Source: Scenedesmus sp. ARA3 (lineage: Eukaryota; Chlorophyta; Chlorophyceae; Sphaeropleales; Scenedesmaceae). Taken from it: a stretch of DNA of 64,000 bases. Position 1 is the stretch's first letter. Each line of letters begins with the position of its first letter. Shown piece by piece: positions 17,107-63,977 of this stretch. The notes under the pieces were generated by a model. The model was not told the origin of the DNA, made no database searches, and saw only the letters and a list, made by a program, of their open reading frames with translations. Where the stretch lies: positions 64,010 to 128,009 of the forward strand of contig RWJK01001169.1 of assembly GCA_004335835.1 (NCBI GenBank). The letters run 5' to 3'. A program made the translations under genes and the position numbers.

Positions 17107-20100
17107 ATGCAGAGCCTGAAAAAAGCGCTCGGCGACAGCCGGGCTGCCTGCAGCAGCAAAACAGGTCGCAATAATGCTTTTAGCATCAATGCATTGAGAT
17201 CGTCTGTTAGCTGCGGGCACCACCAGACGCCAGTCTCGGCAACAGCAACAGCAAGGCGCCTTGGTCAGGCGTGCCAGCGTGCGTCGCAGTCTCGCAGGAA
17301 TGTCTGCGTTGTGAAGAGCGTGCTCGCAGAGTCTACCGCGAATGCAGTGGACGGCTGCCCCAGGGGTAGCCACTGGCAGGTGATCAGGGTCAGGGCACCC
17401 AGCAATCTGTGTGGCAACTCCACTTGCGTAAACGCAGCTGAAGTCATGCCAAAGCAGTTTGCTGGCTAAAATTGAGATTTCAATTTTTTTTCTTACCAGC
17501 CTACTTAGGGCAGCAACACTAGGGTCCTGTTCAAGAAGCAGCGCTGCTGCTGCTGCTGCTGCTGCTGCCGTCACTCGGTTGCTGCAGCCACTGCTGCTCC
17601 TACAGCAATTGCTGTAGGCGCATCTTACTATACACCTGCTTCTTGAAACGACCATTCTGTTCTTTTAACTTCTGGCTGTTGTTGTGCTGTGTCTGACCGT
17701 ACATGAAGGTGCACAAATTTGGAGGTAAGCTTACAGTTGAACACTGCAGCTGCAAGAGGCCACGTATCTGTGATGCACACTCATTACAAAAAAATATTTG
17801 CAGTCAAAATTGGTTGCTGTAGTCAGAGCCAGCTGAGTGCAATACAACATGCATGTGCAGCAGTACGCTTGCCTCTGCAGCATCCACCTGCTGCTTCATC
17901 ACACTCCACATGAGTCTGACTCGCGCCCTGCCATGTGCCCAGAGCAGACGCACAGCAGCATCAGCAGTAGGCATGTATCAGGTCACTGCTGCTGAGCTGG
18001 CGCTGCTGTGTTATTATCATGCAGGCACCTGCATGGCAAGCCCTGACAGGCTCAAGGCAGTGGCTGAGCTGGTGAGCAGCGGGGCAGTGCTGCTGCAGCT
18101 CACAGCACTGCTTGCACAGGGCAGTACACAGAGGCCGTTCACAGAGAGTTTGCATATAGCATGAAAGCATGGAAGTATCCTCAGCACGTTTTAGTCGAGA
18201 AACGCGTCGAAAGCATTCATAATATCGCGACGTGAACTGGTAAAAGGTTTACGGGCGGCCGTGTGCAGTCAGCCACTTGCAAGCAGAGGACATCAACAGA
18301 AGCTCTAGCAGCTGCTGCGTACACTGCAGCATGTGGACGCCAGGTTTGCGCGGCGTAGCAGCACCAGGTCTAGCTGGTACTGCGGCAACAGCAGCCTCAT
18401 CTGTGCAGTGACGCACTTCATTTGCAGCTGATGTTGCATAGGCAGCTCTGCGGCACTACCATGCAGGCAGCTGTGCTGGCAGTGCCTCAGCTCCAGCACG
18501 CTGTGCGTTTGACTGTTACACCTGCGGCTATAGTATGCTGTAGCAGCAGCAATGATGCCCACCGCGTCCTGTGTTATTGCTGGTCTTTGTTCATTGCCCG
18601 CAGATCATCAACGAGCCTGCACAGCAGACCGTGACTGTCGTGTCAGCCATGGGCAGCTGCGCTGAGTCACCGGTCAAGGTCACCGACCTCATCCTCAACA
18701 TGATTGACAAGGCAGCACGCCAGGTGGGCGCAGCAGCAGGCAGCCGGCCGGCAGCAGCTGGTGTGGTGCAGCAGCAGTGTTGCAATGCGGAGTAGGCTGG
18801 CAGCAGGTTGTACAGCAGCAGTGGATGCAGCATTGCTGCTTACAGTAGTGGTCATAGCAGCAGAGACACTTTGGCTAACAGTCAGGCAGCGCCCAAGGTG
18901 TGACATGCTGCAGCTTGCAGCAGCAGTCCAAACCAGCAGCAGTTGCAGCCACAGCGCAAACAGCAACAGACAAAGCAACAGGTGGCAGATTCAAGCGAGC
19001 TGCAGACGCTGCAGAAGACAGCGCGAGCAGCAGTCACAACGCTTGGTGGTTTGGTGGCTGCAACTGGCACACCGCCTTCTGTCAAAACACAGCAGCACCT
19101 CTGGTACCTCTGTGTTTCCTGCAAGCACGTGCCTCACCTTGGTTTGCCCACTGGGGCTGCTATGGCTGCTGTCTCTCGCTTGTTTGCTTGCAGGACGCCG
19201 CGTTCCTGGTTGACCTGGCTGCGCTGCAGGAGAAGCACGTGGAGACGGCCAAGAAGCTGCTGGGCCAGGGCCCGGAGCTGACCGCCTTTGTGTCGCGGCT
19301 CATGGACGACATCGGCAACCTCAAGGCCATGCTGCAGGCCATCTGCATCGGTGAGTTGTGGATAGGTTGGGGGTGCTGCTGCAGGGCGCTGTTGCGCAGC
19401 AGTGCGAGCAGACGGCACGTTGCAAGGCAGCGGGAAGGAAGCAGCAAGAGTAGGGGGCTGTCCTGCAAGGCTGACAGGGCAGTTGCGGCGCTGCTGCAGA
19501 CAGGGGACATGCAGCAGTCATGTTGCAGTTGCAAGCCGCAGAGCCGTGAGCCTTCCTGCACTGCGCATCTTTAGCAGCACTCAACTGACGCTCCTCTGGC
19601 TGCGCTGCTGCCACTGGCCTTGATATCAATCAATCTCTTCCGCCGCGCGCAGCCGGCATGGCCACGGATGCGTTTGTGGACTTTGTGGTGGGCCACGGCG
19701 AGCTGTGGAGCGCGCAGCTGCTGGCGGCCACCTGCAAGCAGATGGGCGCTGACGTGGCCTTCATGGACACACGCGATGTGCTGGTGGTGACCCCCACCAG
19801 TGACGGCACAAGTGTGGACCTAGATGAGGAGGCCAGCAACAAGCGCCTGGACGAGTGGTTCAAGCAGCACGGCAACCACAAGCTGGTCATCGCGACTGGC
19901 TTCATTGCCAAGAACCAGAAGTGAGTGCAGCACTGGCATTCGTCAGCAGCAGCAGCAGCAGCGCTGGCACTCGCCAGCAGCAGCAGCAGCAGCAGCAGCG
20001 ATGGCACGTGTCAACAGCAGCTTCGCAGCATGAGCATGAGCTTGCCTGCAGTGTCAGCAGGGCAGCAGGCTGTAGTACGGGACTGTGGGTAAAGTGTCCA

Positions 20101-21514
20101 GTTCTGTTCAAGCCATTGACCTTGTACAGGTTCTGTTGTACAAGTGCTGCTGTAGCTCAGGGTGCCTCTCTACTGTGCCTCCTGCCAGTCCTCTACAGCT
20201 CCACAGCTGAGCTACAGAAAGCGTGCACTTTGGTGTTGAAGGCATTGTGGGGCTTGTGTCATGCACCAACTAGCCCAACCCTTCTTGCTGGCCAAATCTC
20301 TCTGTACCGCTGCGCAGGGGCCAGGCCACCACGCTGAAGCGCAACGGCAGCGACTTCTCCGCCACCATCATGGGCGCGCTCTTCCGCAGCGGCCACATCA
20401 CCATCTGGACAGACGTGGACGGCGTGTACTCGGCTGACCCGCGCAAGGTGAGCGGCGGCAGCAGCAGCAGAGGATCTGCTGTTTGGGGCATGTGCAGCAG
20501 CAGCAGCAGCAGCAGCATGCGGGAGAGGTGGCTTGCAAACCCCGCGCTGGCAGCAGCATCTTACACTGCAAATTACAGCAGCAGCAGTTGACATGCAGGG
20601 CTGTCCTTTGATGGTGCGGGATACAGCGCATCCCGGCAGACAGGCGAGGGACCAGCTGCACCTCTTCCATGCACCAAGAACGTGCTCACACACTGCTCTC
20701 CATACATCGCTGCTTGCTACCTTTGACCAACCTCCAACTACGCCACTGCCCCGCGCAGGTGCCCGAGGCGGTGTGCCTGCCCAGCCTGACCTACCACGAG
20801 GCCTGGGAGCTCCTGTCTGCCTGCTGACTTTCACCATACTAACAACCCCCACACCAACTGCGCTGCAGGTGCCTGAGGCGGTGTGCCTGCCCAGCCTGAC
20901 CTACCACGAGGCCTGGGAGCTCTCCTACTTTGGCGCCAATGTGCTGCACCCGCGCACCACACTGCCGGCCATGAAGTACAGCATCCCCATCGCCATCAGG
21001 AACTTCTTCAACCTGGCGGCGCCAGGTGCGTCACGGAATGACAGAAAAGCTCTTGCAGTGTGGACTGTGTGTGCGCAATGTTGAGTTTTGGGGTAGATCA
21101 GCTGTGAGGCGGGAGCGGCGAGAGTTGCTGTACATGGGGCTGCTGTTAAAAAAGCTGCATGCACCGCTGCCCACTTCCTTCGTCTACTGCATGACACTCA
21201 CAATGCTTCCGGAACCTTGGCTGCGGTGCGCCGTGGACTGTCAGCTAACCCAGCCACTGCCCCATGCCTGCAACTCTATCAACACCCCTGCCCGCTGCCA
21301 TGTGTCTCTGCTGCTGTTGTTATTTCTGCTGTCTCTCCCTCTTCCTCCCTCTCTCCAACAGGCACGCAGGTACTGGACCTGGAGGCTGAGCAGAAGTTCA
21401 GCAAGGGCGCTGTCACCATCAAGGGCTTTGCCACCATTGACAATGTGTGCCTCATCAACATTGAGGGAACAGGCATGGTGGGCGTGCCAGGTGAGCAGTG
21501 GCTGTGCGGAAGGA

Positions 21515-21546
<32 letters not shown>

Positions 21547-24500
21547 AGCCTTCCTGCACGGCAGCAGCCTGAGGACGTGAGGAACCGCATGTACAACTCG
21601 CAAGATTGTGACAGTGAAGGGTGCACTTCCATAGCCTCCACAGTTTGACAGGCCAGTGCTTCGTCTATGCATCAAACATGCTAGCTGCCGCACTGCGGCG
21701 CACCAGCCGGGCCACCCACTGACCTTTGCGCTCGCACGTCGACTTGCAGGTATCGCCAGCGCCGTGTTTAGCACGGTGCGTGATGCCGGCGTGAACGTGA
21801 TCATGATCAGCCAGGCCAGCAGTGAGCACAGCATTTGCTTTGCGGTCAAGGGCAGCGAGGGAGACACAGCAGTGGCAGTGCTCAAGAAGCGCTTCGCAGA
21901 CAGCATCAGCGCGGGACGGTGAGTGCTGCTGCTGCTGCAGTAATGTTGCAATAGGATGTGATGAGGGGCTGTTGACAGTTTGAATGTGCCGGCTGTGCTG
22001 TGCTGTGCTGTAGCACAAAGCTGTTGATTGCAGGTCACGGACAGTGCTTTTAGGTGGGTTGTGCGTGCTGGGTGATCACAATGTACTGCGCTGCCAATGC
22101 TATTTGCACGCCATGTGTGCTGCTGAGATGTCCTGCTTCCGCCTGCTGCTGCTGCTGCTGCTGCTGCTGCTATTGCTGCATCTTTGCCTGCGCCCTGCAG
22201 CGTGAGCGGCGTGGAGCGCATCGACAACTGCTGCGTGCTGGCTGCAGTGGGCCAGGGCATGGTGCGGCGCAAGGGCGTGGCTGCCACCATGATGGGGGCA
22301 CTGGCCAAGGCCAACGTGAACATCAAGGCGCTGGCACAGGTGTGCTGGCTGTGGGCTTGCTTGCTAGGGTGGTGCCTTGTGTATTGTGTGTGGTGGCTGC
22401 CAATGGTCAGCAAGTTTCAGCAAGGCTGTAGTGTGCCCCGGCAGTGAAAGGACAGCAGTGCGTCATGTTGCGTGCATACTTGCGCACAGTCTGCACACGT
22501 GCGTGTCTGACGTGCTGTCGCCACCCCCCTCGGGCTCCCCCTAGTACAACATCAGCGTTCTCATCAACTCACTGCTCATCGCGTACTGTGTCCCCCTGCC
22601 TCAGGGCTCCTCGGAGTACAACATCACCGTGCTGATCGACCAGAAGGACAGCGAGCGCGCGCTGCGCGCCGTGCACAGCCGCTTCTACCTCAGCGACGTG
22701 CCGATTGGTGTGGGCATTGTCGGCCCGGGCTTGATTGGAGGCACACTCATCGAGCAGCTGCGCGAGCAGGTGCGAGGGAGTGCAGGAGCACGTGTAGCAG
22801 CTGTGTGGTGTGACAGCATGCTGTTGATTGCATCATGTATGTTGTGGGCGCGGGCTTCTTTGGTGGCATGCTCACTGAGCAGCTGCGCGAGCAGGTGAGG
22901 CTTGCAGAGCAGCAGGAGGAGTGCACCTGTGGGGTGTGGCAGCATGCTGTTGATGTGCATGCTGTGGCAGCATGCTGTTGATGTGCATGCTGTTGATGTG
23001 CATGCTGTGGCAGCATCAGCCCCGCGGCTTGGTTGGCGGCACGCTCATCGAGCAGCTGCGCGAGCAGGTGGGGCTTGTGCAGCAGCAGGAGCGCAGCTGT
23101 GTGTGGTGTGGTGACATGCTGTTGAATTTGAGTGTACGTGGGTGTATCAAAAACCGTCCGCAGTTGTTGTGTGCTGACCGCATCTGCAACTGCTGGCTGC
23201 CGACCTGCCCGTCACACTTGCTGCCACCAACCACAGGCGGTGCAGCTGCGGGAGGAGTTCAACATCGACATCCGCGTGCTGGGCATCGCTGACAGCAAGC
23301 ACATGCTCACCAGTGAGGGAGGCATCGACCTGGCCAACTGGCGGCAGCAGTGGGAGAGCAACAAGCAGCCCAGCGACCTGCAGGTGCGCCCAGAGGCAGA
23401 CAGTGCTCCTAAGATGGGGTGTATTGCAAGGTGTGGAACAACACGAGTCACTACCAGCTGCGGCAGTTAGCGCATGTAAGCTTGCCTGCTGTTGGACAAG
23501 CCGGACATATGACGTTTTGTGCCGTGCTCGCTTCGTCCTACATCCCGCACCCTTGCCATCATGCTGCCTTCACCTCAGTGAATCAATTGCCCCCGCTCTG
23601 CTCTGTCTGCCTCCTTTTCGGTAAAACCCCTCAGGCCTTTGGTGATGCGCTGGCCTCATCCTACATCCCCAACCTGGCCATCGTGGACTGCACTGCGAGC
23701 GACGCGCCGCCTGCGCACTACCTGGAGTGGATGGGCAAGGGGCTGAACATCATCACGCCCAACAAGAAGCTGGGCAGCGGCCCGCTGGAGCGCTACCAGG
23801 CGGTGCGCCGCATGCAGCGCGAGTCCTACATCCACTTCTTCTACGAGGTGCGGCACAGCTTGGAGATGGCATTATGACGGTTGCTTTTGGTTGGGTTGGT
23901 TGTGTAGGTCGATGGTGGTGGGGCAGCTGTGGGGAGTCCTACATCCACTTCTTCTACGAGGTGCGCGCTGGGAGCTGTGCTGCTGTGAGGTGTAAATTTG
24001 TTAGATGTACGCTGGAGCTGTGCCTGCTGGTTATGAATGCCCTGCATATACTTCTTCTAGGAGGTGCGGCGTGCTGCGCGCTGCTGTGTTGGCTGCATTT
24101 GGTTTATCCCCCTGTCGTACATGCTGGTCATTCGTGTGGCTGTAGCAATGGGGCCAACCTGCGGGTAGACAACTGCTGCAGCCTGCCGTCCTGCCAAATC
24201 AATCCATGTTGCTGCCGCAATCACGTGGCGCAGGGCACTGTGGGTGCTGGCCTGCCCATCATTGGCATGCTGAAGCACTGCTGCTGCACGCCTGCCTGAT
24301 CACTGACAACTGACCTCTGCTCCCTCGCTGCCGCGCTTGCAGGGCACTGTGGGTGCGGGGCTGCCCATTATCGGCACGCTGAAGCACCTGCTTGAGACTG
24401 GTGACAAGGCGCAGCTGGTGGAGGGAGTGTTCAGCGGCACGCTGTCCTTCATCTTCAACACTTTTGGTGATGGCCGGCCCTTCAGCGAGATCGTGAAGGA

Positions 24501-26068
24501 TGCCAAGGCGCAGGTGCGGGGGCGCAGGGGCGGAAGCGGGGTGGTGCGGTGTGCATGCGTGCTGCGCCTGTTTGGGCAGCAGGCGTGCAAATACGGAGCT
24601 AGTGTGGAAAGTGTTTGCCCACACTGCAAAGACACCCAGTCAAATATTGAATGTGACATTGAGTCAAACTTGCGGTCAAAGATGCAGTCAAACATCCAGC
24701 CAAACAAGCATTACACACTCCGTGCAAGTGCCACACACACCTCGTTCCCATGCCGAAGCGTCCTTGAGACGCACCAAACTTGGCATAAAAGCGTGGCGCA
24801 CTCACCCTTTCTCCTTGCTGCTGTTGTGCACTGCCTGCTTCTGCCCTGACTTTCCCCCCACGGCTACACAAAGCCTGACCCGCGCTGCGCACTCACCTTT
24901 TCCCCTGCTGCTGTTCTGCGGTTGTGCCCTGTCTGCCTTCATCTTCCCCCGCAGGGCTACACGGAGCCCGACCCGCGGGACGACCTCAACGGCACCGACG
25001 TGGCGCGCAAGGTGGCCATCCTGGCCCGCGAGTGCGGGCTGATGCTGGAGCTGGACGACATCCCTGTGGAGTCCCTGGTGAGGGGCACTGCTGCAGCCAT
25101 GCTGACATTTGCGTTGATGCCGGCACAGTTGGTGTTGCCGCATCTAGCAGCTAAAGGTTCGGCACACAAGCAGAGCAGCTGGACAGAGCGTGAACCTATG
25201 GTGTGGTGTGCGCAACTGTAGGATGCGATTGCTGCAGCAAGGTTGACAATGCCATGTCAAGCGCGCTGTGCAGCAGGAGAACATGCGCACACACATCCTC
25301 GTGCGCTGCCTAACCATCTCCCGCCCGCGTGTACGCCTGCCATTTCCCTTTTGCTACCCTCGCAGGTGCCTGAGCCGCTGCGGTCCTGCAAGACGGCTGA
25401 GGAGTACATGTCGCGGCTGCCTGAGTTTGATGCTGACATGGCCGCCAAGCTGGACGCGGCGCGCGCCAGCGGCGAGGTGCTGCGCTACGTAGGCGTGGTG
25501 GACGTCAAGGCGGGCAAGGGCAGCGTGGAGCTGCGCAGGTGGGGCCAGCGCCGCTGCTTCTAGGGGCTCTGTAGGAATGTTTGGAATGTGTGTTATGCCA
25601 TCTGTGGTTGTCAAGTGGTGGACGTGAAGGCGGGCAAGGGTAGCGTGGAGCTGCGCAGGTGGGTTGGGCGAGAGCGTGTTTGCCATCTTCCTGCAGAGAA
25701 GTGCTCTCCATGTTGCCTTTTCATGGTTGTCCAGGCTCCGCACAGGATGGCACGCTGCTGGTCCGGATTAAAGAGCTGAACACACGCAGTGCTTAGTTCG
25801 TGGACTGATGTGTCTCGTGCTGTTGTGTACTCACTCGCACTGCCTGCCTGCCATGCCTGCCTGCTTTGATGCATGCTGCAGGTACCCTGCCAGCCATCCG
25901 TTTGCGCAGCTGCAGGGCAGCGACAACATCATCGCCTTCACCACAGCGCGCTACGGCAAGCAGCAGCCGCTGATTGTGCGCGGGCCTGGCGCCGGCGCGG
26001 CAGTCACAGCAGGAGGCGTGTTCAGTGACCTGCTGCGCCTGGCAGCATACCTGGGCGCGCCCTCATAA
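17107..26068 (+). CDS. AKHSDH: Bifunctional aspartokinase-homoserine dehydrogenase
   Basis: Commits aspartate to Thr/Met/Ile synthesis (aspartate kinase) and reduces aspartate semialdehyde to homoserine; plastid enzyme. Eighteen exons close in phase to 927 residues, normal for plant enzymes: 17107-17379, 17709-17724, 18025-18071, 18604-18723, 19194-19350, 19653-19920, 20318-20447, 20869-21025, 21362-21490, 21750-21918, 22201-22339, 22605-22769, 23237-23383, 23635-23847, 24343-24513, 24955-25077, 25366-25538 and 25882-26068. Transit-like residues 1-90; kinase VHKFGGTC near 92, VTVVSAM and [23 protein letters not shown] near 337; two ACT domains about 390-535 for feedback control; dehydrogenase Rossmann motif [16 protein letters not shown] near 571; catalytic-region [10 protein letters not shown] and [11 protein letters not shown]. 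Exon 2 is only 16 nt. Many introns hold partial copies of neighbouring exons. TGTAA at 26886-26890 could end the transcript. Confidence 0.96.
18141..18216 (+). repeat. Dispersed repeat, copy 1 (aspartokinase intron 3)
   Basis: Begins with the 24-mer ACAGAGAGTTTGCATATAGC plus ATG(A/T), and resembles 38381-38456 over about 76 bp by eye, ending near GCGTCGAAA in both. No open frame. The second copy lies in the 3' flank of the calredoxin-like gene, in the same orientation. Confidence 0.7.
20121..20217 (+). repeat. Two adjacent intronic hairpins
   Basis: Perfect 8-bp inverted repeat CTTGTACA/TGTACAAG at 20121-20144 with an 8-nt loop, followed by a perfect 11-bp inverted repeat CTGTAGCTCAG (20150-20160) / CTGAGCTACAG (20207-20217). 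Both lie in intron 6 of the aspartokinase gene. Confidence 0.7.
20759..20812 (+). repeat. Partial duplicate of aspartokinase exon 8 (5' end)
   Basis: 54 nt identical at 53 positions to 20869-20922, the first 54 nt of true exon 8, and preceded by its own CGCGCAG acceptor. The one change is silent (CCC/CCT). Offset 110 bp. Read in the gene frame it leads into LSAC and TGA, so its inclusion or retention would truncate the kinase. Confidence 0.92.
22532..22568 (+). repeat. Decayed duplicate of exon 12 (5' end)
   Basis: 37 nt resembling 22604-22640 at about 80 per cent by eye; keeps GTACAACATCA and CTCATC, but has an in-frame TAG where the true exon has GAG. Offset 72 bp. Confidence 0.75.
22709..23067 (+). 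repeat. Tandem triplication of exon 12 3' end with donor
   Basis: The coding sequence for [14 protein letters not shown] followed by a GTGxG donor occurs three times, ending at 22769 (true exon), 22894 and 23067. Copies two and three read [14 protein letters not shown] and [14 protein letters not shown]. Intron sequence (GCATGCTGTTGAT) is repeated along with them. Only the first is phase-consistent with its upstream acceptor. Confidence 0.9.
23524..23560 (+). repeat. Decayed duplicate of exon 14 (near 5' end)
   Basis: About 36 nt resembling 23647-23682 (coding for ALASSYIPN in the true exon, VLASSYIPH in the copy); offset about 123 bp, lying in intron 13. Confidence 0.75.
23934..24063 (+). 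repeat. Two duplicates of exon 14 3' end with donor
   Basis: 27 nt at 23934-23960 are identical to 23821-23847 (coding ESYIHFFYE) and are followed by GTGCGC, matching the true donor GTGCGG. A third, degenerate copy ends at 24063 (CTTCTTCTAGGAG then GTGCGG) and has an in-frame TAG. Offsets 113 and 103 bp. Confidence 0.9.
24234..24278 (+). repeat. Duplicate of exon 15 5' end with acceptor
   Basis: 45 nt coding [15 protein letters not shown] copy the start of exon 15 (24343-24387, [15 protein letters not shown]) and retain a CAG acceptor. Offset 109 bp. Downstream the copy frame reads CCCTPA and stops. Confidence 0.9.
24862..24884 (+). repeat. Duplicate of exon 16 5' end, acceptor lost
   Basis: 23 nt (coding GYTKPDPR) copy 24955-24977 (GYTEPDPR). 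Upstream pyrimidine-rich intron sequence is repeated too, but CCCGCAG has become CCCCCAC, removing the acceptor. Offset 93 bp. Confidence 0.85.
25615..25658 (+). repeat. Duplicate of exon 17 3' end with donor
   Basis: 44 nt coding [14 protein letters not shown] copy 25495-25538 with two silent differences and keep a GTGGG donor. Offset 120 bp. Confidence 0.92.
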
Positions 26069-27313: not shown

Positions 27314-28632
27314 CTAGCCTGAGGCCGCAATATCCACATCCTTGCTGGCAGCAGGGCCCATGACACCCATCGACTTCAGAGTCTGTGCTGTGTCTGCATG
27401 GCTGTCCTCGCCCTGCACCGCCCGCAGCGGCAGCGGCAGGTCTGCCTCTGTCACAGGCACGCCCTGCAGGTGCTGCCATGCAGGGTGCTGCTCCTGTATG
27501 TCACGCAGCGCCTGCCACACATTGACCCCAGCTTTGACGCCAGTGCCCACACTGACCTGCACACAGCGCGCAGCAACAGCCATGGCGGGTGGCGCCACCA
27601 GCGGCATCAGACCAACACACAATGCTACAAGGACAAAAGTGTCATGTTAACAGCTACCTTAGCTCATCACGAACCACGTGCACGTACATTGGGGTCAATC
27701 GGCAGCACTGTGACGAGTTCCAACACATGCCGGCAAGCAGCACTTGGGGGTGCTGCATAGGGCATGCAGCTGCTGTGCTGCGGCAGCGTCTTGTATACGT
27801 AAGAAATGAAGACAGCAAGCAGCTGCCCACCTGCATCAGCTGCTTTTGCATAGAATAGATCATGCATGATTGTGCTGAGGGGTGCATGGGCCCACCTGCA
27901 TCAGCTTCTGGCCCTTGCTGATCCCCACCAGGGACTCCAGGTAGGCCAGCACATAGTAGGTTGAGGAGGGGCTGGTGTTGCCGTAGTCCCTGCACACGAA
28001 ACGATAGAGATAACCCGAATAAATTAGTATCCAGAGGTGTTTGTTCAGTTTGGTTGAATTCAATACGCTTGAGTTAACGCACTGCTCTTCCAGGCTGATC
28101 AACCACAATTCTGCGTGTCTGCCCTGTAGTTAAGCACCTGAGCTGGGCCCTACCTGAGGGCAGCTGCTGATGGCAGGGTGTGCTGCACAGTCAGCCCCAG
28201 CCCCTTCATGAAGCCCTTCAGCAGGCCGTGGGAGCCTGCACAGGCACAGGAAAGCACAGCCACAAGGAACTACGTGTTATCTTGTACTAACACCAACCTG
28301 AGTTGCTGCTGGCTATTCAAAAAACACGTGTTTCACTGCATGAAACATTGGTGGAAGTAGCGGCTCTCTGGGCCGCTGCATGCAACGAATCGCCAAGAGT
28401 TTGGCCTGGAAATGTGTTTCCATTATGCGATTATGCGCGAAATCGCTCAGCAACTCCACACCAACTGTCTCATGCAGCTATGTACCTGGATGCAGGAGGA
28501 AGTGGTCGATGGTGCTGTCAGCAAAGCTGGGGATATAGTGAGGTGCTGCTGTTGGTCCCTTGAGCCGGCGCAGCACTGCAGCCTTTGCTGCTGCTGCCAG
28601 CTGCCCGCATGACAGCACCTTGGGAGCAACCT

Positions 28633-28669
<37 letters not shown>

Positions 28670-31466: not shown

Positions 31467-31764
31467 ATCGATCGATGTGTTGCATGTTTGTAACAGGTGC
31501 TTCGCAGGCAGATCGGTGCTGTGTTAGGCACAGTTACAACGAAACCGGTGTCGGAGTTCAATGTCGGGGACCTCGCATTCCGGAAGCTGTGGGACCAAAG
31601 TCAGGGCCGCGCGAGCCACTAAGCCATCCTATTAGATGATCGAATGCAGAGTCTGCATCTAAAAGTCCGTCAAAGGTCAGAGATTCGCCTTTAGGCTCGC
31701 CGGTCGTCGCTCAGGCTGCTGCCCGCGGCCGCATCCACAGTTTACTGGGCTAGGCAGTTACACA
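31467..31764. promoter_or_regulatory. Bidirectional promoter interval, KCS / acyl thioesterase
   Basis: 298 bp between divergent start codons of two acyl-chain enzymes. No TATA box recognised. If the KCS gene instead starts at 31325 the interval is 439 bp. Confidence 0.55.
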
Positions 31765-34683: not shown

Positions 34684-37600
34684 ATGCAGGTGCACTTTGG
34701 CAACCGATTCAACATCCATAGCTCCACATACACACCTAGAGTAACGTTGCTCGGAGTCACCCCGCGACGATGCAAACAGAGGCAACGTGCAGCAGCTGCT
34801 GCTGACGCTGGAGAGGGCAGTCAGCAGGTGGGAGTGGGCTCAAGGGCCTGCAGCTCAGCCAAGCAACATCGTTCGTCTCTCCCTGCAGCAGTGATGCACT
34901 CCTGTTTAGCTGCTGCTGCCAGCCCTACTGTATGACTGGCACCAGTGCAGTTGCGCTCACCGATTCAACCCAGATAGTGCTGTTCCATGCAGGCACAGGC
35001 GCAGAAGCCACCATGGGCGGCACGCATGCCCACATGGTCTCCCTCCACGCGCATGCACCTCAACCACCTCATGGACCTGTTCACCATCTGCGACAAGGTG
35101 CGTGCCGCAGCAGCTGCAGCACGCAGGTGCAGCTCACTGTGACCTGCTGGCTTGCAACACACACAACCAGCATGCATGAACACAGACATGATTATGACAG
35201 GTCATGACCTGGCATGGCAGCAGGCGTGTGTGCACACTTCACACAGCGTGCATGCCCGCGCAGAACTGTGTGTGATTAGATGTTTTTTGAACCTGTCATT
35301 CTCGCAGCTGCCTGCCTTGACAAGGGGGCAAGCTTACTGGTTGGTATGTTGTCTTGCATGCCGCTCAGGACTCCGTGCGACATGTGCGGGGGCTGTTGTC
35401 ATTGCTACTGCCTGCCTGATGCTGCTGCCTCTTGCAGGACGGCAATGGCATTTTGGACAGGGAGGAAGTGCGCCACCTGCTGCAATCAGACGGGCGCTGC
35501 ACCGCAGGAATCTGCATGATAGCACAGGTGGGGCACAGCAGCAGCAGCAGCAGCGCAGTATCCTGGTGCCACAAATTTGCAGCAGTGGCAGCTACCATGA
35601 CTGATGCGAGTAAGTAGGCTGCAGCAATGGCCTGCTTTGCCTCCAGTCGGCCAGGTACAGCGTTCACCTTACCTAGGGCCACTTCTACACGCAGCAACAG
35701 CTTGATGGGCGTTGCATGCAGGCCCAGCACCATACCAGCTTCTGTCACAGTGCCACTGCTGCAAACACTTCCGCAATCAGCCGCAATCAGCATGTACTGC
35801 AAACTGTGTGCGTTATGCTGTGCAGCACCGCTGGCTGAGTGAGCCAGACCTTGACGAGATCATGAGCCTGTACGACACCACCAACAGGTGCGCGGCAGCA
35901 CTGCGGATGGAGTTGCGCGTGAGATCAGAGCCATAGCTGAAGATTTCAGCAATACTGTGCTGCAAACCACACATCATCCTAAATGGACACGTCGCTAGCA
36001 TGCTTACATGCCCCCACAGGTATGCTCTTTGTCAACACTGCCATGCCGTGCTGCTGTGGCGTGCCAGGGGCGGGCTGTCGTTCAGCGAGTTCATGGAGCT
36101 TGTGCTGGATGGCGTGCTGCTGGACGGCAAGTTCGAGGAGTACAGGTGGGACCGGGAATGAGAGCAGCAGCAGCAGCAGCTGTTGCCATACCAGCCGCAG
36201 GGAGCAGCGCCAGACACCAGGCCGTGTGTTGCTGCAAGACATGCTGACGCCATTTCTGCCTGCTCTCTGCTTGCACGCTTCACTACCAAAGCGGAACAGC
36301 CAGCAATGCTGTGCAACCTGCCACTTACTTCAATTTCGTTAGGCGTGTTATCCCTGCCGTCAGGCCGTATTATTTCTGCCTGGTGGCGTGCAGGGCGGTC
36401 TTCTCCGCTGCTGACGAGGACGGTGACGGCTTCCTGTGCATCGAGGAGATGGCCGCGGTGCTGCAGCAGCTGGGGCGGCCCATCAGCCCGCAGGAGGTGG
36501 CCGACATCATGGCGTGAGTGGCACGAGCGCTGTTGTAGATGTTGTGTATGTGCATGCTCTTGATGTGAATTATCTTGAGTGGTGAGTGCTGCAGCAGCTG
36601 GGGCGGCCCATCAGCCCGCAGCAGGTGGCCGACATCATGGCGTGAGTGGCCTGGGCGAGCTGTTTGCATTTCATCAGCATGTTGTTTGTTTTGTAATGCT
36701 CTTGAAGGCACTCATGCGACCTGGTTGTACAGCTGCATTGCACCACACAGCAATGCAGTACTGCTGACATGCAAGAGCAGCCAGGCACTCAGAAAGCTGC
36801 CTACTTACCCGCCTGGCTGCTGCTGTAGCAGCGCCGTCTTGGCTGATACAGCAACACAGCACTACTTGCAAACAAGTTCACTTGATCAAGATGCCTGCCC
36901 ACGTGCGCACCGTCGAAATCAAGATGCCTGCCCACCTGCGCACCATTGAATCGCCTGGCCGCCTGCTGCTGCAGTGCCGCTGACGTGGACGGCAACGCGC
37001 TCATAGACTTCAACGAGTGGCTGCGCCTGTTCAGGGGCCAGCTGCTGGACCTGCCGCGCATGCTGCGCTACATGAAGATGAAGCCCGTGGTGAGCCGTTT
37101 GCTTGGTCGCAGCTGAGCTGTGGCTCATCAAGCTGGAGTCACTGCTGGCATGCAGCTGCCTATGCGATGTGGACGTAGCCGGTTGTATTGCCCGCATGTG
37201 GATGCTTGAGCTTTGTCAGTCATCTGGCCTATAGCCACTGCATGCCGCACCAGCACGTATAAGCAAAGCGGCTGTCAATATGACCTCACTGTGCTGGCTG
37301 CGCACCAGTCCATTAGTTTGTATCTTAGCTCACCCACCGCCGCTGCTGCTGCTGCTGCCGCCGCCGCCGCCAGGTGCTGGGTGACGAGGTGCCGCCCGCA
37401 GCCGCCATGGCGCGCAGCCTCACCAGCGGCGGCCTCACGCTTGTATCTGGCGGGCAGCAGCTTGGGGCTGTCATGGACGGCCTGCCGCCTGCAACGCTGC
37501 TGGTGGCGCTGTTTGGGCTGAGCGGGGACCCCATCTGCCAGGCGACGGCTGGCGCTGTGCGGGTGAGGGGGCTGCGGTTGTTGACGGTGCAGGGTTGAGA

Positions 37601-48302: not shown

Positions 48303-48334
<32 letters not shown>

Positions 48335-50493: not shown

Positions 50494-50546
<53 letters not shown>

Positions 50547-54633: not shown

Positions 54634-56474
54634 ATGTCCCTGCAAGTCCCCAGGTAAGCTTTGCAACAGCCCAGTGCATCAACCGGCTGCTGTGAATGCT
54701 TGCGACGCGTGCAGCTGCCAGTCCTTTCAGTGAAGCAGCAGCAGCAGGGGCAGCAACTGCTGTTGCCGAGGCATCTGCTCAGACAGCACCCCATGCTGCC
54801 TGTGCTTTGGTTCATCAGATGCTATACCTTTCGGTTTCGCGCTGCTGCACGTGCAGGGATGGGCTGGTGCAGAAGCTGCAGCGGCTGAGCAGCAGCCAGC
54901 AGTCGATAGAGTCGGTCTCGTCCTTCTGCATCTTCTACAGCAAGGACGCGCGCGGCGTGGTGCAGATATGGGAGCAGGAGTTCTACCAGGCGCAGCCGGA
55001 GCGCAAGCTGGCGCTGCTGTACCTGGCCAACCACATCTTGCAGGAAGGCCGCAAGAAGGGCATGGCTTTCCAGGAGGAGTTCTTCAAAGTGCTGCCCAAG
55101 GCAATTAGTCACATGGCTAAACATGCGGATGAGAAAGCCAAGCGCTCCCTGGTCCGCATTGTAACAGTGTGGGAGGAGCGGCGCGTGTTTGGCACGCGGC
55201 ACTGCAAATCCTTCAGGGAGGCGCTGGGCATGCCGCCATCCACAGCAGCAGCTGCAGCAGATGCGAAGCCAGCAGCGGCTGGCGGCAGCGGCAGCAAAAG
55301 CGCAGGTGCAGCACCTCCAGCAGCAGCAGCAGCGGCGGCAAAGCTGGGGCCGGTTGGTGATGCGCTGTCGCTGGTGCTGACGACGGCAGGCAGCACCGCA
55401 GCCAAGAGCAAGGAGTTTACAAGCAGCTGGTCGCAGGTAGGGGCAGGCGGCATCAGCAGCAGCAGCAGCAGCAGTCACAGCTGTACAACTGCTCATTGGT
55501 GATTAAGCCGCAGTGCGTGCCTAGTTGCAACGAAATTGGGTTGTGCAGAAGGCGCAAAGCAAAGATGCTGTGTTGGAACAGGGGGCGTGTTCCGAGCAAC
55601 TGGGTGAACGCTGCAGCTGTCAACTCTGGTACTCAAGTTTCCTCTAATCACGTAGCTGGATTCGTGCGATTGCGCACCAGATGGCTCAGCAGCACTCTAC
55701 TGCCATGCTGCTGACACACAAAGCCGCGGGTTGCCCTGCTGCTGCCTGCACCTGTGCTGCTGCTGCTGCAGAACCTGCTCACATCGGCCAGCCTTCCTGA
55801 GGTGTCGCTAGCGCACAGCAAGCTGGGCGCATACGCAGCAGCACTGCAGGAAGAGCTGTCGGCGCGGCAGGCGGCGCTGGCTGCTCTCAACGCTGAGCTG
55901 GCAAAGCAGGTGCGGGCACTGAAACAGCAGCAGTAGCAGCAGCAGCATGTGAACAGCAGGAGTGTGTGCTCACCCCACCCTTGTCAGCAGCTAGCAGCAT
56001 GGCCAGCCAAGCACAGTCATCGCTGCATCTGGGCGTTCTGTAACCTACTCTGCAAATCAAACTGCTGCCAAAGCCCATCAGCCTTCAGCATCTTCAATAG
56101 CCTTACAGTTGCTGCCTCCTGTCTTAGCACTGCTTCATCGCATCGCACCACCTGCCGCCGTGCTGCCTATTGCAGCCCTGTTACTGAAATAACCGCCTGC
56201 CGTGCTGCCCTCACAGACCGCCGAGGTGGGCCGGCTGGAGTCGCAGCTGGCCAGCGCGGGGCAGCAGCGGCAGCAGCTTGATGCGCGGCTGGGCAGCCTT
56301 GCCAGCACGCTGTCTGCTGTGGCGGGGCTGGGGCAGCTCTTCGCGGCGCAGCAGCAGCAGCAGGTGAGGCGGCGGCAGCAGCAGCAGCAGCAGCAGCAGG
56401 TGAGGCGGCGGCTGCAGCAGCAGCAGCAGCAGGTGAGGCGGCGGCAGCAGCAGCAGCAGCAGCAGGTGAGTGGC

Positions 56475-56507
<33 letters not shown>

Positions 56508-57692
56508 TGAGGCGGCGGCTGCAGCAGCAGGGGCGGGCGCGGTGCTGTGTCTGTCGCAGCGCAGGCGGTTAGGTTGCAGGAACATATCAGGTGCAGGAGG
56601 TGGATAGCAGCAGGGTGTGAGGCGGCAGCAGGGCAGCAGAAGCAAGGGCTGTGATTGCCGAACTGCAGGAGGCTGGCGGTTGCCGGGCGTTGCATGAATG
56701 GGTTTGGAAGCAGCACAGCAGGCTGGGGCATACTTGGCGTGTTGTGACCTGCCGCTCGTGCCCCGCAGCTGCACCCAGCATCCAGGTGATTGCGCTTGCA
56801 CCACCCAGCAGCAGCACTCACGCACGCACTGACCTGCTGTGCTGCTTCCTTGCCGTGCAGAATGGCGCGGCAGCAGGTGCTGATGCTGCCGCTGGAGCCA
56901 CTGCTGCTGCTGCTGCTGATGCTGGTGATGCTGGCGGCAGCCCGCAGGCGCCTGATCTGGAGCTGGAAGCAGATGACGATGACGGTGAAGCAGCAGCAGG
57001 TGAGATGCGAGAAGTAACGCATGATGTGACGCTATGCTGGTCCCTTTGTGCATGTGCGTGTTGGTCGAATAACAACCTGCTGCAGCGTTGCTTGCAAGCA
57101 CCCATCGTCACGCGGTTTGAATCCAGCATGCCTCTCTGCTGCGCTGCTGTGCTGTGCTGCTGTCACCTCTGCTGCTGCATCTGCAGGTGGCGCCATGGGC
57201 TTGCAGCCAAACCCAGTGCAGCAGCAGCAGCAGCAGCAGCCAATAATCACACATGACCTGCAGGCGCTGCTGGCCAACCCGGCAATGCTCTCGGCAGCCA
57301 TCACTGGAGCGCAGCAAGCCAGCGCAGCAGCAGCAGCAGGCATGAGCTATGCCAGTCAAGCAATGGGAATGCAGCTGGGCTTACCGTCAGCAGCTGGTGT
57401 GCAGCTGACGCTGCCGAGCGGCCCAGTGCCGCCTGCTGCTGCTGCTGCTGCTGCTGGTGCGATGCCACCTGGCGCTGCCGGCTATGCATTCTCAGCAGCA
57501 GCGCCTCCGCAGCAGCAAGCAGGCTTCAGCGGGTTTGGCGTTGGCATGGCTGGCGGCGAGTATGCAGTGGCAGGTCAGCAGCAGCAGCAGCAGCAAGGTG
57601 GTGGCTTTGGCGGGCTGATGGCGCTGCAGCAACAGCCGTCTGGGTTTGCTGACGAGGCGGACGACCCATACGACCCTGAGCATGCTGATTAG
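54634..57692 (+). CDS. CID-domain protein (RPRD1/Rtt103-like), Pol II CTD binding
   Basis: Six exons close in phase: 54634-54653, 54857-55436, 55772-55909, 56217-56363, 56861-56999 and 57187-57692; 509 residues. Exon 1 is 20 nt, coding MSLQVPR across the junction. The CID covers residues 7-130: IESVSSFCIFYSKDARGVVQ, YQAQPERKLALLYLANHILQ, and KRSLVRIVTVWEERRVFG, the helices that grip the phosphorylated C-terminal domain of RNA polymerase II during 3' processing and termination. Next come a coiled-coil (residues 200-290, rich in Leu/Ala/Gln), an acidic block (LELEADDDDGE) and a Gly/Gln/Ala-rich tail ending DPYDPEHAD. Exon 4 ends at the first of five CAG|GTGAG donors. The stop TAG is followed closely by TGTAA; another lies at 58421. 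Confidence 0.87.
56360..56512 (+). repeat. Iterated splice-donor / CAG array
   Basis: Five successive units of (CAG)n followed by GTGAGGCGGCGG or GTGAGTGGCGGC. Possible donors follow 56363, 56399, 56432, 56465 and 56506. Spacings of 36, 33, 33 and 41 nt keep the first four in the same reading frame. Confidence 0.92.
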
Positions 57693-58820
57693 CTGTAAGC
57701 TACAGCAGCAGCAGCAGCAGCAGTCTGGGGCAGCATCGGGCTCGTCACGACCCTGTGCATGCAGACTAGGCTGCTCATGCCGCAGTGGTTTGTTGTTGGC
57801 TTGTGTTGGTGTTGGTTGTGGTGGTTGGTGGTGCAACAGAAGCTTGATGGACCAGTACTTCTGCAGCAGATGGTCGGTAGCAGCTTTAGCATATGCTGAA
57901 GGGGGCCATGCATGGCACCGCTGCTGTTGAAGCTGCGGTGCTGGCAGTGCTGGCTGGTGTACTGCTGATATATCAGTCATGTGTCAAGACAGCAGCACGT
58001 GCTGTTGTGGTTTTTGCCCTGCAAGTTGTGCACAGTTGATGGTGCCGTTGGTGTTGGTTAAAATGCACAAGCAACAGTGTCTTCAGTATTCTGGTTTGTG
58101 GCAGTGTTGCTGCCGCCTCTGCATGCAACCAGCAGTTGTGTTGGGAATAGCAACTTCCAGGCGCATTGTGGTCAGCTGGTCAGCAGCGTGGGACAACTCT
58201 ACAAAGTAACATGACAGGCACTGCAGCTGCAGTAGTTGCCATGAACTGTCTGGATCACGGATGTGTGCAAGTGTGATATGTGTTCAGAAGTAGGAGTACA
58301 CTTAGGTGAAAATGATGGACATTACGCGCAGGTGCATGATCACAATGAGCACTCTGCTATTCTCATAAGCACCTCCCGCGATTGACCTGTTGAAGTCTGT
58401 ATGGTCTCACACCCATCTGGTGTAATCCACGTGCAGGGTATGATGACGCAACAACCCAAGCCTAAGACAGGTGCAACACGTAATACTAAGACAGCTGTGG
58501 CGCACACAACCGAACCTACAAGCTGCCACAAGCCCTATTTGGCTTGCCGCCTAGCTATCCCGTGCCAGCAGCTGTCTGCGCTATCTCCTGGTAGGCTAGA
58601 ATGCACAAGCATCGCCAGAGATGGCGCTAGTCCTCCGCACTGGCACAGTGCTAATGGCCACATACGCCTTGCAAGACACACGGCCTGCAATACCATAGCC
58701 GCGGCGGGATGACAACTCAGCTGCATCCACGTGCGTGGAACGCGCCATTCTACATCCATTACTAGTGATCACGAAACCTCGCTATCTGCGCTCTGCTACC
58801 AATCACCGCCACCATCGCCA
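57693..58820. other. Intergenic between convergent genes
   Basis: About 1.1 kb between the CID stop and the ABCG stop. Starts with a (CAG)n run near 57703-57722. TGTAA at 58421-58425 is a candidate polyadenylation signal. No exon supported. Confidence 0.5.
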
Positions 58821-61800
58821 CTATCTGCGCTCCCGCCTCGCCACCAGCAGCAGCGCCGCAAAGGTTGCTGCGTGCATCAGCCCCAGGTAGCCCAGCAGGA
58901 TGCCGATGGTGGTGCCAAAGCGGCGGCTCATGCCAAAGTACGCTGCAGCGCAGCAGCACGGCAGCGAACAGAACAACAAAAGATTCAGCAACAGTGATGG
59001 CAGTCAGGCTATGCAGGGCTGAACACCACCTGCTTGAGTGCGGCGTGTGTGATGGCACTGCTTGTGCTGGCACAGTAAAGCCATCAGATCTGCTGCAAGT
59101 CTGCTGAGCCGTGCCCCCGTATCACAAGCAGGCACGCTGCAACCTTTGAGTTGCTGTGAAACTGTTGCTGTATGCTGCCAGCTCGCCTGACATTGTGTAG
59201 CGCAGCAGCACTGCATGCCGCGGCGCACCCACAGCCACCAATGTGTCTCGTCTCTCAACATCTCCCGTCTGTGCTGCTATCACGCATAACACGATGCTGC
59301 TGCACGTCCGCATGCCGCGCCTCACCTGCCACCGCGCTGCTGTCCACCGCACAGCCCTGCTGCGCCCCGACAGCCTGCTGCAGCTGGCTGGGGCTCAGCA
59401 GCGACGCCGCGCCTGGCAGCAGCTGCGTGAGGAACGCTGCAGACTGCGAGTCCAGGCCGGCAGCGGGACACGCAAAGCGGCGGCCGCCCAGCTCGATCTG
59501 CACCATGCCCTCGAATGCGTAGTGCAGCGCTGACAGGAAGCGCAGGTTGGCTAGCGGCGCGAAGCGGATCTCCTGCAGAGGTGGGGGCCGGGGGAGGGAT
59601 GCACAGGGCTGCTGTCAGCAAGGGGTGCAGTTGATAATGCTGTTTGCTGTTTGCTGGGGCCACGGTGCTGGCATGACCATGCGTGCACAAGCGTGCACTG
59701 CTAGCACAATGTGTACCCTGAGCCCCAAGTTGTGCTGCTGCTCGCTCCTGCATGGCTTGACACAGGTGCATCAAGCGCAGGGATTGCAGCACAGGCAAGG
59801 CTTGGCACAGGTGGAAGAAGCACTCCAGGCTGTCGCACCTTGTAGGGAATGAAGAAGCCTGACAGCACCAGGTTGAAGGTGGTCCAGCCGATGCCCAGCA
59901 TGAAGGAGGCGTCCTGGCTGGGGGTCAGCGTGGCAGACAGGTGCAGCACCTGCAGGCAGGGGAGGCAGGCGCACAGCGCAGTGGTATGATTAGGTGCTGG
60001 GCAGGGCTCACTTGCTGCGGTGAAGCACGGTGAACATTGTTCTGCTGCCATTTTTGCAGGGAGCATGTGCTGCTGCGACAGTGGGGTCTGCTCAAAGTGC
60101 TCAGCAGTGATATAGAGCAAGCAGAGCAAATGATCAGCACGAGTGTGCTTTGCACGCAGGCATCAAGCATCCACTGCAGTGCACTGGCAGCATCGTTTCG
60201 CACCTGCACCGCGATGAGGAAGATGAGCACGCCGATGCTGCAGTGGCCGAAAATGTAATCAGCGCCGGGCCGCATGCCGGTCATGCCGTACTGCACCAGG
60301 CCTGCACACAGCGCAGTCAGCGCACTGAAGGGCACTGTCGAGGTGACCTGCATGGCAGCAGCAGCAGCAGCAGCAGCAGAAGTGAGACATCAAAGCGCTT
60401 AACATGCAAGACAGGAAGGCATGCCGCATGTGACTGGCGGTATGACCTGTTACGGCGTTCTAGGCATGGATCTGCTTGGTGCATGCGCCTGCTGTACCTC
60501 CAGCCAAGCCAGGGCATGCAGCAGCCAAACAATGCCGCACACCTTCGCCGCATAGTAGGCGCTTGGCGCGTACAGGCCAGCTGCCCTGTCAGCCAGGTAT
60601 GAACCCTTGTCCTCAGTGTAGCTGCAGCAGCAGGCACCATGGGCATCATGATGAGCAGCAGCAGACAGCATGATGGTTATGTTCGAGCGCCAGTCATCAA
60701 CATGGTGAGGCTGGCCTGCATAATGTGCTGCTTGAGCCCAGCACGCATCATGTGCACGATTGGCATGCTACTGCTAGCCCATGATACTGTGGGAGGCTTT
60801 GTATCAAATAACACAGCTTTGCCATGCTAGAACCCAACAGCCGCTGACAGCATACAGGGCAGCAGCAGATCTTTATCCAGCAGGCAGCTGCCACAGGCTG
60901 CCCAGCCAGCAAAGCACCAACACCCACGCAAACACACCAACCCCACACCGCCCAACACACTCACAGGCTCATGTTGACGAAGGGCATCAGCACAAAGAAG
61001 CACAGCGTGGCAAACAGCAGGTTGAGCCGCTGCCGAATGCTGCCCGCATCAGTAGGCAGGTCGTAGTAGATGAGCCCCACCAGCAGCGCCACCCATGTGA
61101 AGGTCAGCAGCCGCCCTGCCACGTCAGCGGGGTTGCGTGTTACTTTGACACACTCGCGCCACGCCAGCGCCCGGTACTGCTGCAGCCAGCTGGTGCGGTA
61201 TGCTGCGCTACTGCTGCTGCTGCTCCTGCTGCCTTCATCTGCTGCCGCATGGGCCACATGTTGCTGCTGCTGCTGCTGTTCCGGAAGCTCCGCCAGCTGT
61301 TGCTGCTGCTGCTGTGCTGCATGGCTGTTCTGCTGCCTGTGCCTGTGGTGCACCTGCTGGGACAGTTGCCCTGTGCCGAGCTCTACGCTGCCACCCCTGC
61401 TGAATGGGCCGCCTGGCAAGCTCTCCTGGCCCATTGCACCTGCTTCTTGCTGCTGTTGCTGCTGCCGCTCATCAGCATATAGCTGGTCACACACATACTG
61501 CAGCTTGAAGGTGTTGGCAGCTGCCTGCAGCTCTGCTAGGGTGGTCATGGTGCGGGCGTGGAACGCCTGCGCAGCACAGCCAGTGCAGCAACACAATCGC
61601 CGCTGATGCTGAGCACCAAGGCACGGTCGCGCATGCTGCTCTGCCTATTTAGATCACATGTTGCATCACACGCAGCCAGTTGCCACTAGCCGGTCATTGA
61701 GGGTGGTGTGCTGCCCTCGGACACTCGACTGATACTGCTGCTGTGGCAGTGGCATGACTGCCTGACCATTGGTTGCCTTGCCAGCAGTGGAAGCGTGATG

Positions 61801-63977
61801 TCCCAGCCCATCACAGCTGCCTCTCCCTCAATTCCATCTGGCAAGCACAGCACTGACTGATTTAGTGACACTCGCATGCATCATGCACGTACGCCGTACC
61901 AGAGCGTCACGGGCACTTTTGCAAAGCGCCCCCGCAAACTCCACCACCACCAAGTCAGTCCTCGCAGACTACACAGCATTTGCGTCACAGTTGCTATCAA
62001 CGCTACAACAGCCTGCCCTCCAGCTTTGCAAACCACTCACCGCTGGCTTGGCAACCTCCACCACCAGAAGGTGAGGGCTTGCAGAACCTACTACATATAT
62101 TGTTGAGGTTCATTCCAGACTACTACACGGCCTTGTGCACGCTTCTGGATGCGTTTGTTTGGTGAACAGCCTCACCCCTGGCTTGGCAACCTCCACCACC
62201 ACCAGGTGAGGGCTTGCAGAATCTAATAAACACATTGTTGAGGTTCATTCCCAGACTACTACACAGCCTTCTGCACGCTTCTGGATGCATTTGTTCAGTG
62301 ATCAGCCTCACCCCTGGCTTGGCAAACTCCACCACCACCAGGTCCAGCGCCCAGTCACTGGCCAGGCCCTGAGCAGCAGGCTCGTAGCTGTAGCCCAGCT
62401 GCCCTGACAGCCAGGGCACCATGCCGGACGTGGGGCCGTGGTAGATCAGCAAGCCGGACGCCAGCAGCGTGACCTGCAAGTGGATGCAAGCGTGAGGCGC
62501 GCAACTTGACCAAAGCCAGCGGCTGTGCAAGGAGGTTGCTGGACTGTCACAGGTGTGATAGTGCGTTGGGCAGGAGCACAGCTGACCGTGCCGACTCAAC
62601 ACACGCAGCAGCTGCACACTGCAAGTCAAGCAGCTTGACATGCGATGACAGCGCAGTTTGACACAGCAGGCAGGCACTGCTGGGGGGCAATCATGGAACA
62701 TGCCGTCTGCAGACCTGGCATGGCCTGCAAGTTTGCCACGCAGGTGAGCACATGTGCTGCATGTGTGTCGATGAGCTGCACCTTGTCGAACAGGCTCCAA
62801 ATGGCGCCTTGCAGCAAGCAATGCAACCCAGGCATAGCATGCGCAACAGCAGCCACATATATCAAAGCCAGCACATCATGAAGCGATGCGAGCAGCCGCG
62901 CCCGCGCACCTTGTCAAAAAGGCTCCAGATCGCGCTGCGCGGCTGGTGTATGGCCGCGACCACCGCCTTGCGCGAGGCGTGTGCCAGGCCCTGCAGGTGG
63001 CTCATCACGCTCAGCGCAGCAAAGCTGTCCAGGCCGCTGGTGGGCTCGTCTGCAGCAGGTAGCAGGGTGAGAGGCTGATGAGGCATGCAGTGAGCAAAGT
63101 GTGTTATGCTTGGTGCCAAACTGTGCTTGAAAGCTGGTGCAACACAGCTGCTGCCAGCTGGGTTGCACGCAACAGCTTGTCAGCCAGCAGCACAAACAGA
63201 ACAAGCTAGCCTCGCCGTGCAAGCCTAACAGCTCCTGCATTTCGGTCAAATCACTCCACGTCTGCACTAAGCCACTTGCAATGGAGCGACTGTACTTAAG
63301 CAAATTCGGTCGGGAAAACCACTCTTTTTTGACTAATCACGGGCCAAGAGAGTCCAGCAGCAATAGCAGCAGCAGCGCTGGCTCACCCAGGAACAGGATG
63401 CTGGGGCTGGCCAGCACCCCCACTGCAATGCTCAGCCTCCTGCGCTCGCCACTGGACAGGCCACGCAGCAGCAGGCCGCCCGGCAGGCGCCCACCGACCT
63501 GCGGCAGTGCACGGCGCATAAGTATGTACTCCACGGGTTCTACTTACGTGCCATGCTCAACTCAGTCGATGCATTGACAGTTTTAACCTAGCTGCGCCTC
63601 AAGCCTCCTTCATCAGCTCACAGCTGCCACATAAAAGGCATGTGCCCAGCATGCTGGACTGCATCTGTGCGCCAGGACAAACACCTTGCATGTGCGCAGC
63701 CCTTTCTCACCAGCGTAGAGGCGTGCTTTGACAGCCCCACAGTATTCAGCACCTCCTGCACTGCCAGCTCCCCTACTCTGCTGTGCCGCTTGGATGCTGC
63801 CTTTTGCTGCTGCTGCTGCTGCTGCTGCTGCTGGGCCTCTGAACTGCCTGCGCACACCGCAACGCCCTGCAGCTGGCACGCCTCAATCTGCTTGCTGCTA
63901 CTGACGCCCGGCAGCTGCATTGCTGCGTGGAAGGCCAGCACCTCCAGGCTGGTCATGATGGGGCTGAAGTTGTCATC
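58821..63977 (-). CDS. ABCG-type ABC transporter (5' truncated by window)
   Basis: Ten exons close in phase on the minus strand: 63977-63711, 63498-63387, 63049-62910, 62473-62312, 61566-60965, 60621-60543, 60347-60204, 59949-59839, 59572-59326 and 58942-58821; 661 visible residues. The nucleotide-binding domain precedes the membrane domain, the ABCG order: Q-loop follow-on DDNFSPIMTSLEVLAFHAAM, signature LSSGERRRLSIAVGVL, and DEPTSGLDSFAA after the Walker B position, then IHQPRSAIWSLFDK with the switch His. The linker has polyGln inserts (residues about 60-70 and 240-300). Membrane part: ECVKVTRNPADVAGRLLTFT, YLADRAAGLYAPSAYYAAK, LVLSGFFIPYKV and a final helix before ARRERR. Walker A is upstream of the window. 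Such half-transporters export lipids, waxes or hormones; the substrate is open. Exon 3 and exon 4 ends are duplicated in the following introns. Confidence 0.92.
62035..62341 (-). repeat. Tandem ~135-bp repeats of ABCG exon 4 end
   Basis: The minus-strand end of exon 4 (62312, coding VVVEFAKPG then GTGAGG) recurs with donors at 62176 and 62041, spacings 136 and 135 bp. The units share exon-like CTGGTGGTGGTGGAG, GCCAAGCCAG and about 100 bp of intron (CAGAAGCGTGCA, GGAATGAACCTCAACAA on the minus strand). A one-base difference (GAGGTT for GAGTTT) changes the residue in the copies. Confidence 0.92.
62782..62808 (-). repeat. Duplicate of ABCG exon 3 3' end with donor
   Basis: Minus-strand sequence coding AIWSLFDK followed by GTGCAG copies the end of exon 3 at 62910-62936 (IWSLFDK then GTGCGC). 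Offset 128 bp, in intron 3. Confidence 0.88.

Follow-up and report, generated by a model that had tools for sequence, protein, structure and literature searches.

Exon-edge copies in the introns of a Scenedesmus alga and tandem duplications with a preferred length of about 117 bp

Why do the ends of exons reappear inside the neighboring introns of several genes in one stretch of a green algal genome? The stretch, here called the window, comprises 64,000 nucleotides of Scenedesmus sp. ARA3 (positions 64010-128009 of contig C837) and belongs to an assembly of 87.3 Mb in 1567 contigs, 18 of which were scanned for the same pattern. The gene in which the pattern was chiefly studied encodes aspartokinase-homoserine dehydrogenase (AK-HSDH; 17703..26068, + strand, as are all of its features below) and is referred to as gene W. 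It was modeled with 14 exons, from the start exon to the stop, in a frame that stays open up to the final stop; at least two further AK-HSDH exons lie inside the first modeled intron (1928 bases) and stood outside the border test described below. The protein of the joined exons shows 100% identity, with 99% coverage, to a Tetradesmus obliquus record, in whose full sequence Pfam recognizes AA_kinase, ACT, and Homoserine_dh. Because of this match, we judge from sequence that the alga is T. obliquus or a very near relative.

A first-pass annotation of the window had claimed that exon edges recur in adjacent introns at 14 offsets, 10 of them within 109-136 bp. All 14 were recovered, with the same 10 in that range: a diagonal scan found those of 110, 72, 125, 173, 113, 109, 120, 65, 128, 128, 135, and 136 bp, most of which were also seen by self-BLAST, and a border scan found those of 123 and 93 bp. 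The border test compared the alignment of every exon edge with the intron next to it against three controls: the gene's other introns, 100 shuffles, and the reverse complement. Eight of the 26 exon borders of gene W beat every control, with own-intron scores of 31-103; over all 26 borders, the scores did not exceed 27 for other introns, 27 for shuffles, and 22 for the reverse complement. On the acceptor side, copies were found of the start of exon 4 with its AG (20755..20812; original 20865-20922, offset 110, 57/58 identical), of exon 8 (22532..22568; offset 72, with an in-frame TAG), of exon 10 (23515..23563; offset 123, from the border scan), and of exon 11 with its AG (24230..24282; original 24339-24392, offset 109), as well as of the 3' part of intron 11 together with the start of exon 12 (24796..24884; offset 91-93). 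The AG is gone from the copies of exons 8, 10, and 12. On the donor side, the end of exon 8 has two copies with donor sites and intron sequence (22842..23125; offsets 125 and 173, 297 from the exon). The ends of exon 10 (23934..23965; original 23821-23852, offset 113, 32/32 identical) and exon 13 (25615..25663; original 25495-25543, offset 120) are each copied with the donor site, and a third, decayed copy of the exon 10 end lies further on, at an offset of 103.

A homoserine dehydrogenase gene on contig C1262 (gene P, L006:5002-9733) was compared with positions 22605-26068 of the window. The two genes are 32-84% identical in their principal exon-level matches, and gene P is an old paralogue of the AK-HSDH gene. 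Eight of its 14 borders scored 58-113 with their own intron. The controls stayed at or below 28 for other introns, bar one value of 62, 26 for shuffles, and 31 for the reverse complement; the outlier arises because the start of a 61-base exon is itself copied in the preceding intron. The alignment of exons to flanking introns with a shuffled control, of the kind that the first-pass annotation had proposed as a genome-wide check, upheld its observation in gene W and showed the same pattern in gene P. Across genes W and P, introns measure 251-943 bases as against offsets of 72-166, the copies sit inside the introns, and the splice dinucleotide is kept in 13 of 16 copies (one of them read by eye). 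One exon end of gene P forms a six-member array with a period of about 120 (L006:6687-7427), in which kinships conflict: one pair gives 0.75 for the exon and 0.90 for the intron part, and another 0.95 and 0.52, a pattern that exchange of exon edges would produce. The T. obliquus protein record P0001 carries a 22-residue insertion equal to one copy of this array, as an extra exon, and otherwise departs from gene P only in one residue, two residues at exon edges, and the start. In intron positions, the two genes differ by one intron shifted by ~33 bases, two present only in P, and one only in W; the introns extra in gene P also hold exon-edge copies. Ancestral copies common to both genes are unsupported, as three of eight homologous borders were copied in both versus about 2.5 expected (hand count).

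The pattern extends well beyond these genes. We searched 25 sequences from 18 contigs (289,423 bases, some of them N) by self-BLAST for direct and inverted repeats, using block-shuffled sequence as the null and filtering out low-complexity pairs from all family counts. Seventy-four short-offset repeat families were found on 13 of the 18 contigs; their pairs were direct in 154 cases and inverted in one, and none occurred in shuffled sequence. An inverted-repeat origin is thus ruled out by the single inverted pair among 155, and the direct, close-set copies are those of short tandem duplication. Chance similarity is likewise ruled out by the border controls, the shuffles, and the offset scan described below. 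The rate was taken from 16 stretches on contigs chosen by number (145.7 kb), which held 36 families, with none in 6 of the 16; stretches adjacent to hits were counted in the 74 families and left out of the rate. The earlier claim of frequent short tandem duplications across exon-intron borders therefore holds genome-wide, as far as the 18 sampled contigs go. Loci L004, L005, L009, L010, L012, L013, L015, and L016 had no self-BLAST family, and the others had up to 13 per 10 kb. No viral contigs were found as a source of related loci. CTG/CAG runs of at least four units number 369 over the 289 kb of window and loci, and the number of families rises with the number of runs in a stretch (Spearman 0.66, p = 0.0004). 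As a local cause, the runs were rejected, being no closer to families than random positions (19/72 versus 27.7).

The smallest offset lay at 80-140 bp in 53 of the 74 families and at 100-140 bp in 42. When all offsets between 18 and 400 were scanned without gaps and families were classed by their smallest offset, 78 families emerged: 19 at 18-59 bp, none at 60-79, one at 80-89, 43 at 90-139, six at 140-179, none at 180-199, and nine at 200-299, the last group fitting double units. Detection power was 0.96-1.0 at 100-300 bp, 0.92-0.94 at 80 bp, about 0.6 at 60 bp, and nil at 40 bp or less; offsets of up to 40 bp were taken from the ungapped every-offset scan and not from the power-tested one. 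The 90-139 bp class is split by the empty 60-79 bp gap from the 18-59 bp minisatellite class, and the ~117-bp duplications are not part of that ordinary short-unit class. Weaker pairs at offsets of 65-72 bp do occur, two of the 14 originally annotated ones among them, as do longer periods of short-unit arrays. Ordinary minisatellites with units of 25-36 bp were seen at L014:6798-7019, L024:4454-4879, L025:2756-2939, and L026:4087-4268. Because the offset distribution is narrow, the duplications have a preferred length of about 117 bp, and a length-setting mechanism agrees with this distribution.

The anatomy of the units was read by eye in 36 border units from the 74 families; families with an unclear junction or none, those of about double unit, the ABCG and KCS pairs described below, and some junction families were left out. 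Their offset was 117.5 ± 16.2, with 34 of the 36 within 91-141, so that the narrow size range first noted in the window holds here as it does in the scan. The exon part measured 46 ± 16 bases (16-80) and the rest 71.5 ± 19. The two parts were anticorrelated (r = -0.60), an effect that any misreading of the exon part would strengthen; random pairing gave an offset standard deviation of 25.2 (p = 1e-4), so the offset varies less than independent breakpoints would give. The exon part made up at most 0.67 of the unit in all 36 (Kolmogorov-Smirnov p about 1e-7), and donor and acceptor units resembled each other. Junctions across the families were called from codon usage and splice sites by a procedure that, tested in-sample, recovers 25 of the 26 known junctions and also makes extra calls. 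A called junction fell in 40 of 72 families versus 22.8 expected under random same-locus placement; another count gave 38 of 55 versus 26.6. This enrichment at borders is moderate, and some of it may be survival bias, since intron parts diverge until they are barely recognizable.

How the copies age was examined in 22 units, with mismatched introns as the null. The exon part averaged 89% identity and the intron part 62%, as against 53-55% for mismatched introns, and the exon part was the more alike in all 22 units; choosing pairs by similarity inflates the exon-part value, although the junctions of genes W and P were set by protein homology. The intron part exceeded the null's 95% level in 13 of the 22. 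Exon-edge identity spans 73% to 100%, and whole-unit duplication is clear in an array of the ABCG-type gene with about 90% whole-unit identity; copies thus differ widely in age, in line with the range from near-identical to decayed copies noted in the window. Plain decay at half rate, in which constraint acts on the real exon while the copy evolves neutrally, was rejected because the exon excess also appears between pairs of copies, neither of them coding (0.86 for exon versus 0.65 for intron parts, exon higher in 19 of 20), and because eight units with 94-100% exon parts have intron parts of 57-67%. These copy-copy pairs are not independent; three of them involve the first copy of an array, with a flank that may fall outside the unit, and one reading frame has weak support.

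Copy-copy variable sites fell at codon positions 22/22/28, with 22 synonymous differences and 49 not, and in-frame stops are present in copies. The copies are, moreover, partial exons and keep no coding constraint of the kind expected of duplicated mutually exclusive exons; they look neutral as protein. Real-copy differences fell at 36/32/85, with 82 synonymous and 71 not, and part of this lean toward third positions is the real exon's own constraint. Protein-level selection on the copies is therefore unsupported by the copy-copy pairs, though the real-copy pairs lean synonymous. That exon edges average 89% and introns 62% while the copies lack codon bias suggests homogenization of exon edges among copies.

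We favor, with a probability of roughly 0.6, an explanation in which head-to-tail duplications of about 117 bp arise frequently in the genome, are tolerated in introns, and lengthen them. When a unit lies across an exon-intron border, the intron would gain a copy of the exon edge with its splice site and some intron sequence. The gene models are intact, and splicing presumably stays at the original outer site; if so, the protein is unchanged, and the copy is tolerated while the intron lengthens. The duplication step would most likely be an error of DNA repair or replication, for example a staggered break of ~117 bp that is filled in and ligated, or a jump back along the template over the same distance. 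Exon edges would most simply be kept alike by template switching or short gene conversion among neighboring copies. Several observations weigh against this explanation. The position of the border within the unit is nonrandom, which plain repair error does not predict. The intron part did not exceed the null in 9 of 22 units, and whole-unit duplication is unproven in those nine. In one real-copy pair and one copy-copy pair it was the intron part that was more alike, and the copy-copy pairs have the limits given above. Full neutrality is questioned by the real-copy synonymous share, 82/153 versus about 41% by a hand estimate that assumes a neutral copy next to an exon under constraint; third-position mutation bias could account for the excess.

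The nonrandom border position would be natural if a process tied to splice junctions, through transcription, R-loops, the spliceosome, or RNA-templated copying, made copies of set length around them. The 40 junction-bearing families, the bounded exon part, the resemblance of donor and acceptor units, and similarity that stops near the splice site all speak for such a process. Some families, however, lack a recognized junction, junction-spanning units remain recognizable longer, and selection could account for the limit on the exon part, because a unit at an acceptor has to bring along enough intron for a second working acceptor. We regard this process as rather unlikely. Unlikely, too, by a shade more, is the stronger proposal that a lineage-specific process of fixed length (~117 bp), acting mainly at splice junctions and with exon edges continually recopied onto intronic duplicates, is a built-in engine of intron growth and splice-site movement.

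Selective retention of the copies as alternative or regulatory splice sites is improbable. The conserved exon edges, the dinucleotide kept in 13 of the 16 copies in the two AK-HSDH genes, and the protein record with a copy as an exon fit it, but copy-copy differences without codon bias, in-frame stops, and the loss of AG in three copies do not. Least probable of all is an assembly artefact in which diverged haplotypes or unmerged overlaps were joined end to end. Sharp ends, high exon and low intron identity, narrow offsets, and the fragmentation of the assembly are what it would produce. Yet arrays hold three to six diverged copies, copies occur on 13 of the 18 contigs, and copy-copy differences are not biased to synonymous ones, unlike those of two functional alleles. 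Moreover, a deposited T. obliquus protein contains one gene P copy in exactly the same residues and departs from this genome at another residue, although this record may share the assembly. The first-pass interpretation is partly supported overall; its suggestions that the copies serve as decoy or alternative splice sites, and that the length is of Okazaki-fragment or nucleosome scale, are conjectural. The observation itself is stronger than that annotation was able to demonstrate, the duplications being direct, local, and about 117 bp long.

Several known systems resemble the pattern in part. In the potato RdRp gene (PMC4974935), a duplicated stretch likewise spans an intron-exon boundary and copies splicing signals, but it made a new intron in one gene, whereas the algal copies lie mostly within existing introns of many genes and have a uniform unit. 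The model of intron gain by tandem duplication shares the local head-to-tail duplication that includes splice-site sequence; there the new intron has the length of the duplication, unlike the algal introns, which exceed the offsets in the ranges given above. Fill-in end joining by CST and Pol alpha-primase (PMC8355091) yields direct, local, short duplications of limited size range and is a plausible way to make such units, of which few in this genome are both young and clean-ended. It was described in mouse cells with induced breaks, with a length that follows the overhang, and the parts of that account considered here report no natural 117-bp preference or link to exons. In Drosophila, intron sliding with tandem duplication (PMC2891723) moves intron positions with duplicated splice sites, and genes W and P also differ in positions, but those events are rare and, in the portion of the account used, involve no fixed-length exon-edge copies. 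Introners (PMC9860276) likewise bring lineage-specific growth of intron content and are common in algae; they form dispersed families of similar introns, whereas each algal copy matches its own neighboring exon. Similar introns at many loci were not found within genes W and P, and no genome-wide search for related introns was made. We found no description of fixed-length exon-edge duplications in this alga in the literature searched, outside which most subscription papers lay.

Other genes of the window carry such copies as well. The end of an EF-hand exon of a calredoxin-like gene is copied with its donor site (36458..36650, + strand; offset 128, 64/65 identical); Pfam finds EF-hands in this model, and no thioredoxin domain was found at E ≤ 0.001 in the fragment model. 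The array of the ABCG-type gene (62036..62343, - strand) has 2.3 copies with a period of 136 that are alike over the whole unit (exon 0.92 versus intron 0.88 in one pair) and is probably young. The same gene, in whose model Pfam finds ABC2_membrane, holds a 30-base pair at an offset of 128 (62778..62935, - strand). A pair of 20 bases in the KCS gene region (27825..27909, - strand; offset 65, 19/20 alike; FAE1_CUT1_RppA by Pfam) is a weak point of the observation, as is the yield of only nine self-BLAST families in the window, where most predicted genes have none. On raw open frames, Pfam gave a match in one of five.

In genes W and P, introns with copies have a median length of 458 versus 282 for those without (n = 12 and 7, p = 0.005; first intron of W excluded). 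In a published comparison, the introns of T. obliquus UTEX393 average 462 bp, as against 230, 302, and 284 bp in three other Sphaeropleales (PMC5966456). If 36 families per 146 kb is typical, some 20,000 would be expected in the whole genome, an order-of-magnitude extrapolation from a very uneven spread; tandem duplication would then be a main contributor to the length of introns in this alga, with new splice sites constantly arising next to old ones. So sharp a mutational length could point to a single repair or replication step. For gene prediction the copies carry a warning, as a public T. obliquus protein record already includes one of them as 22 extra residues.

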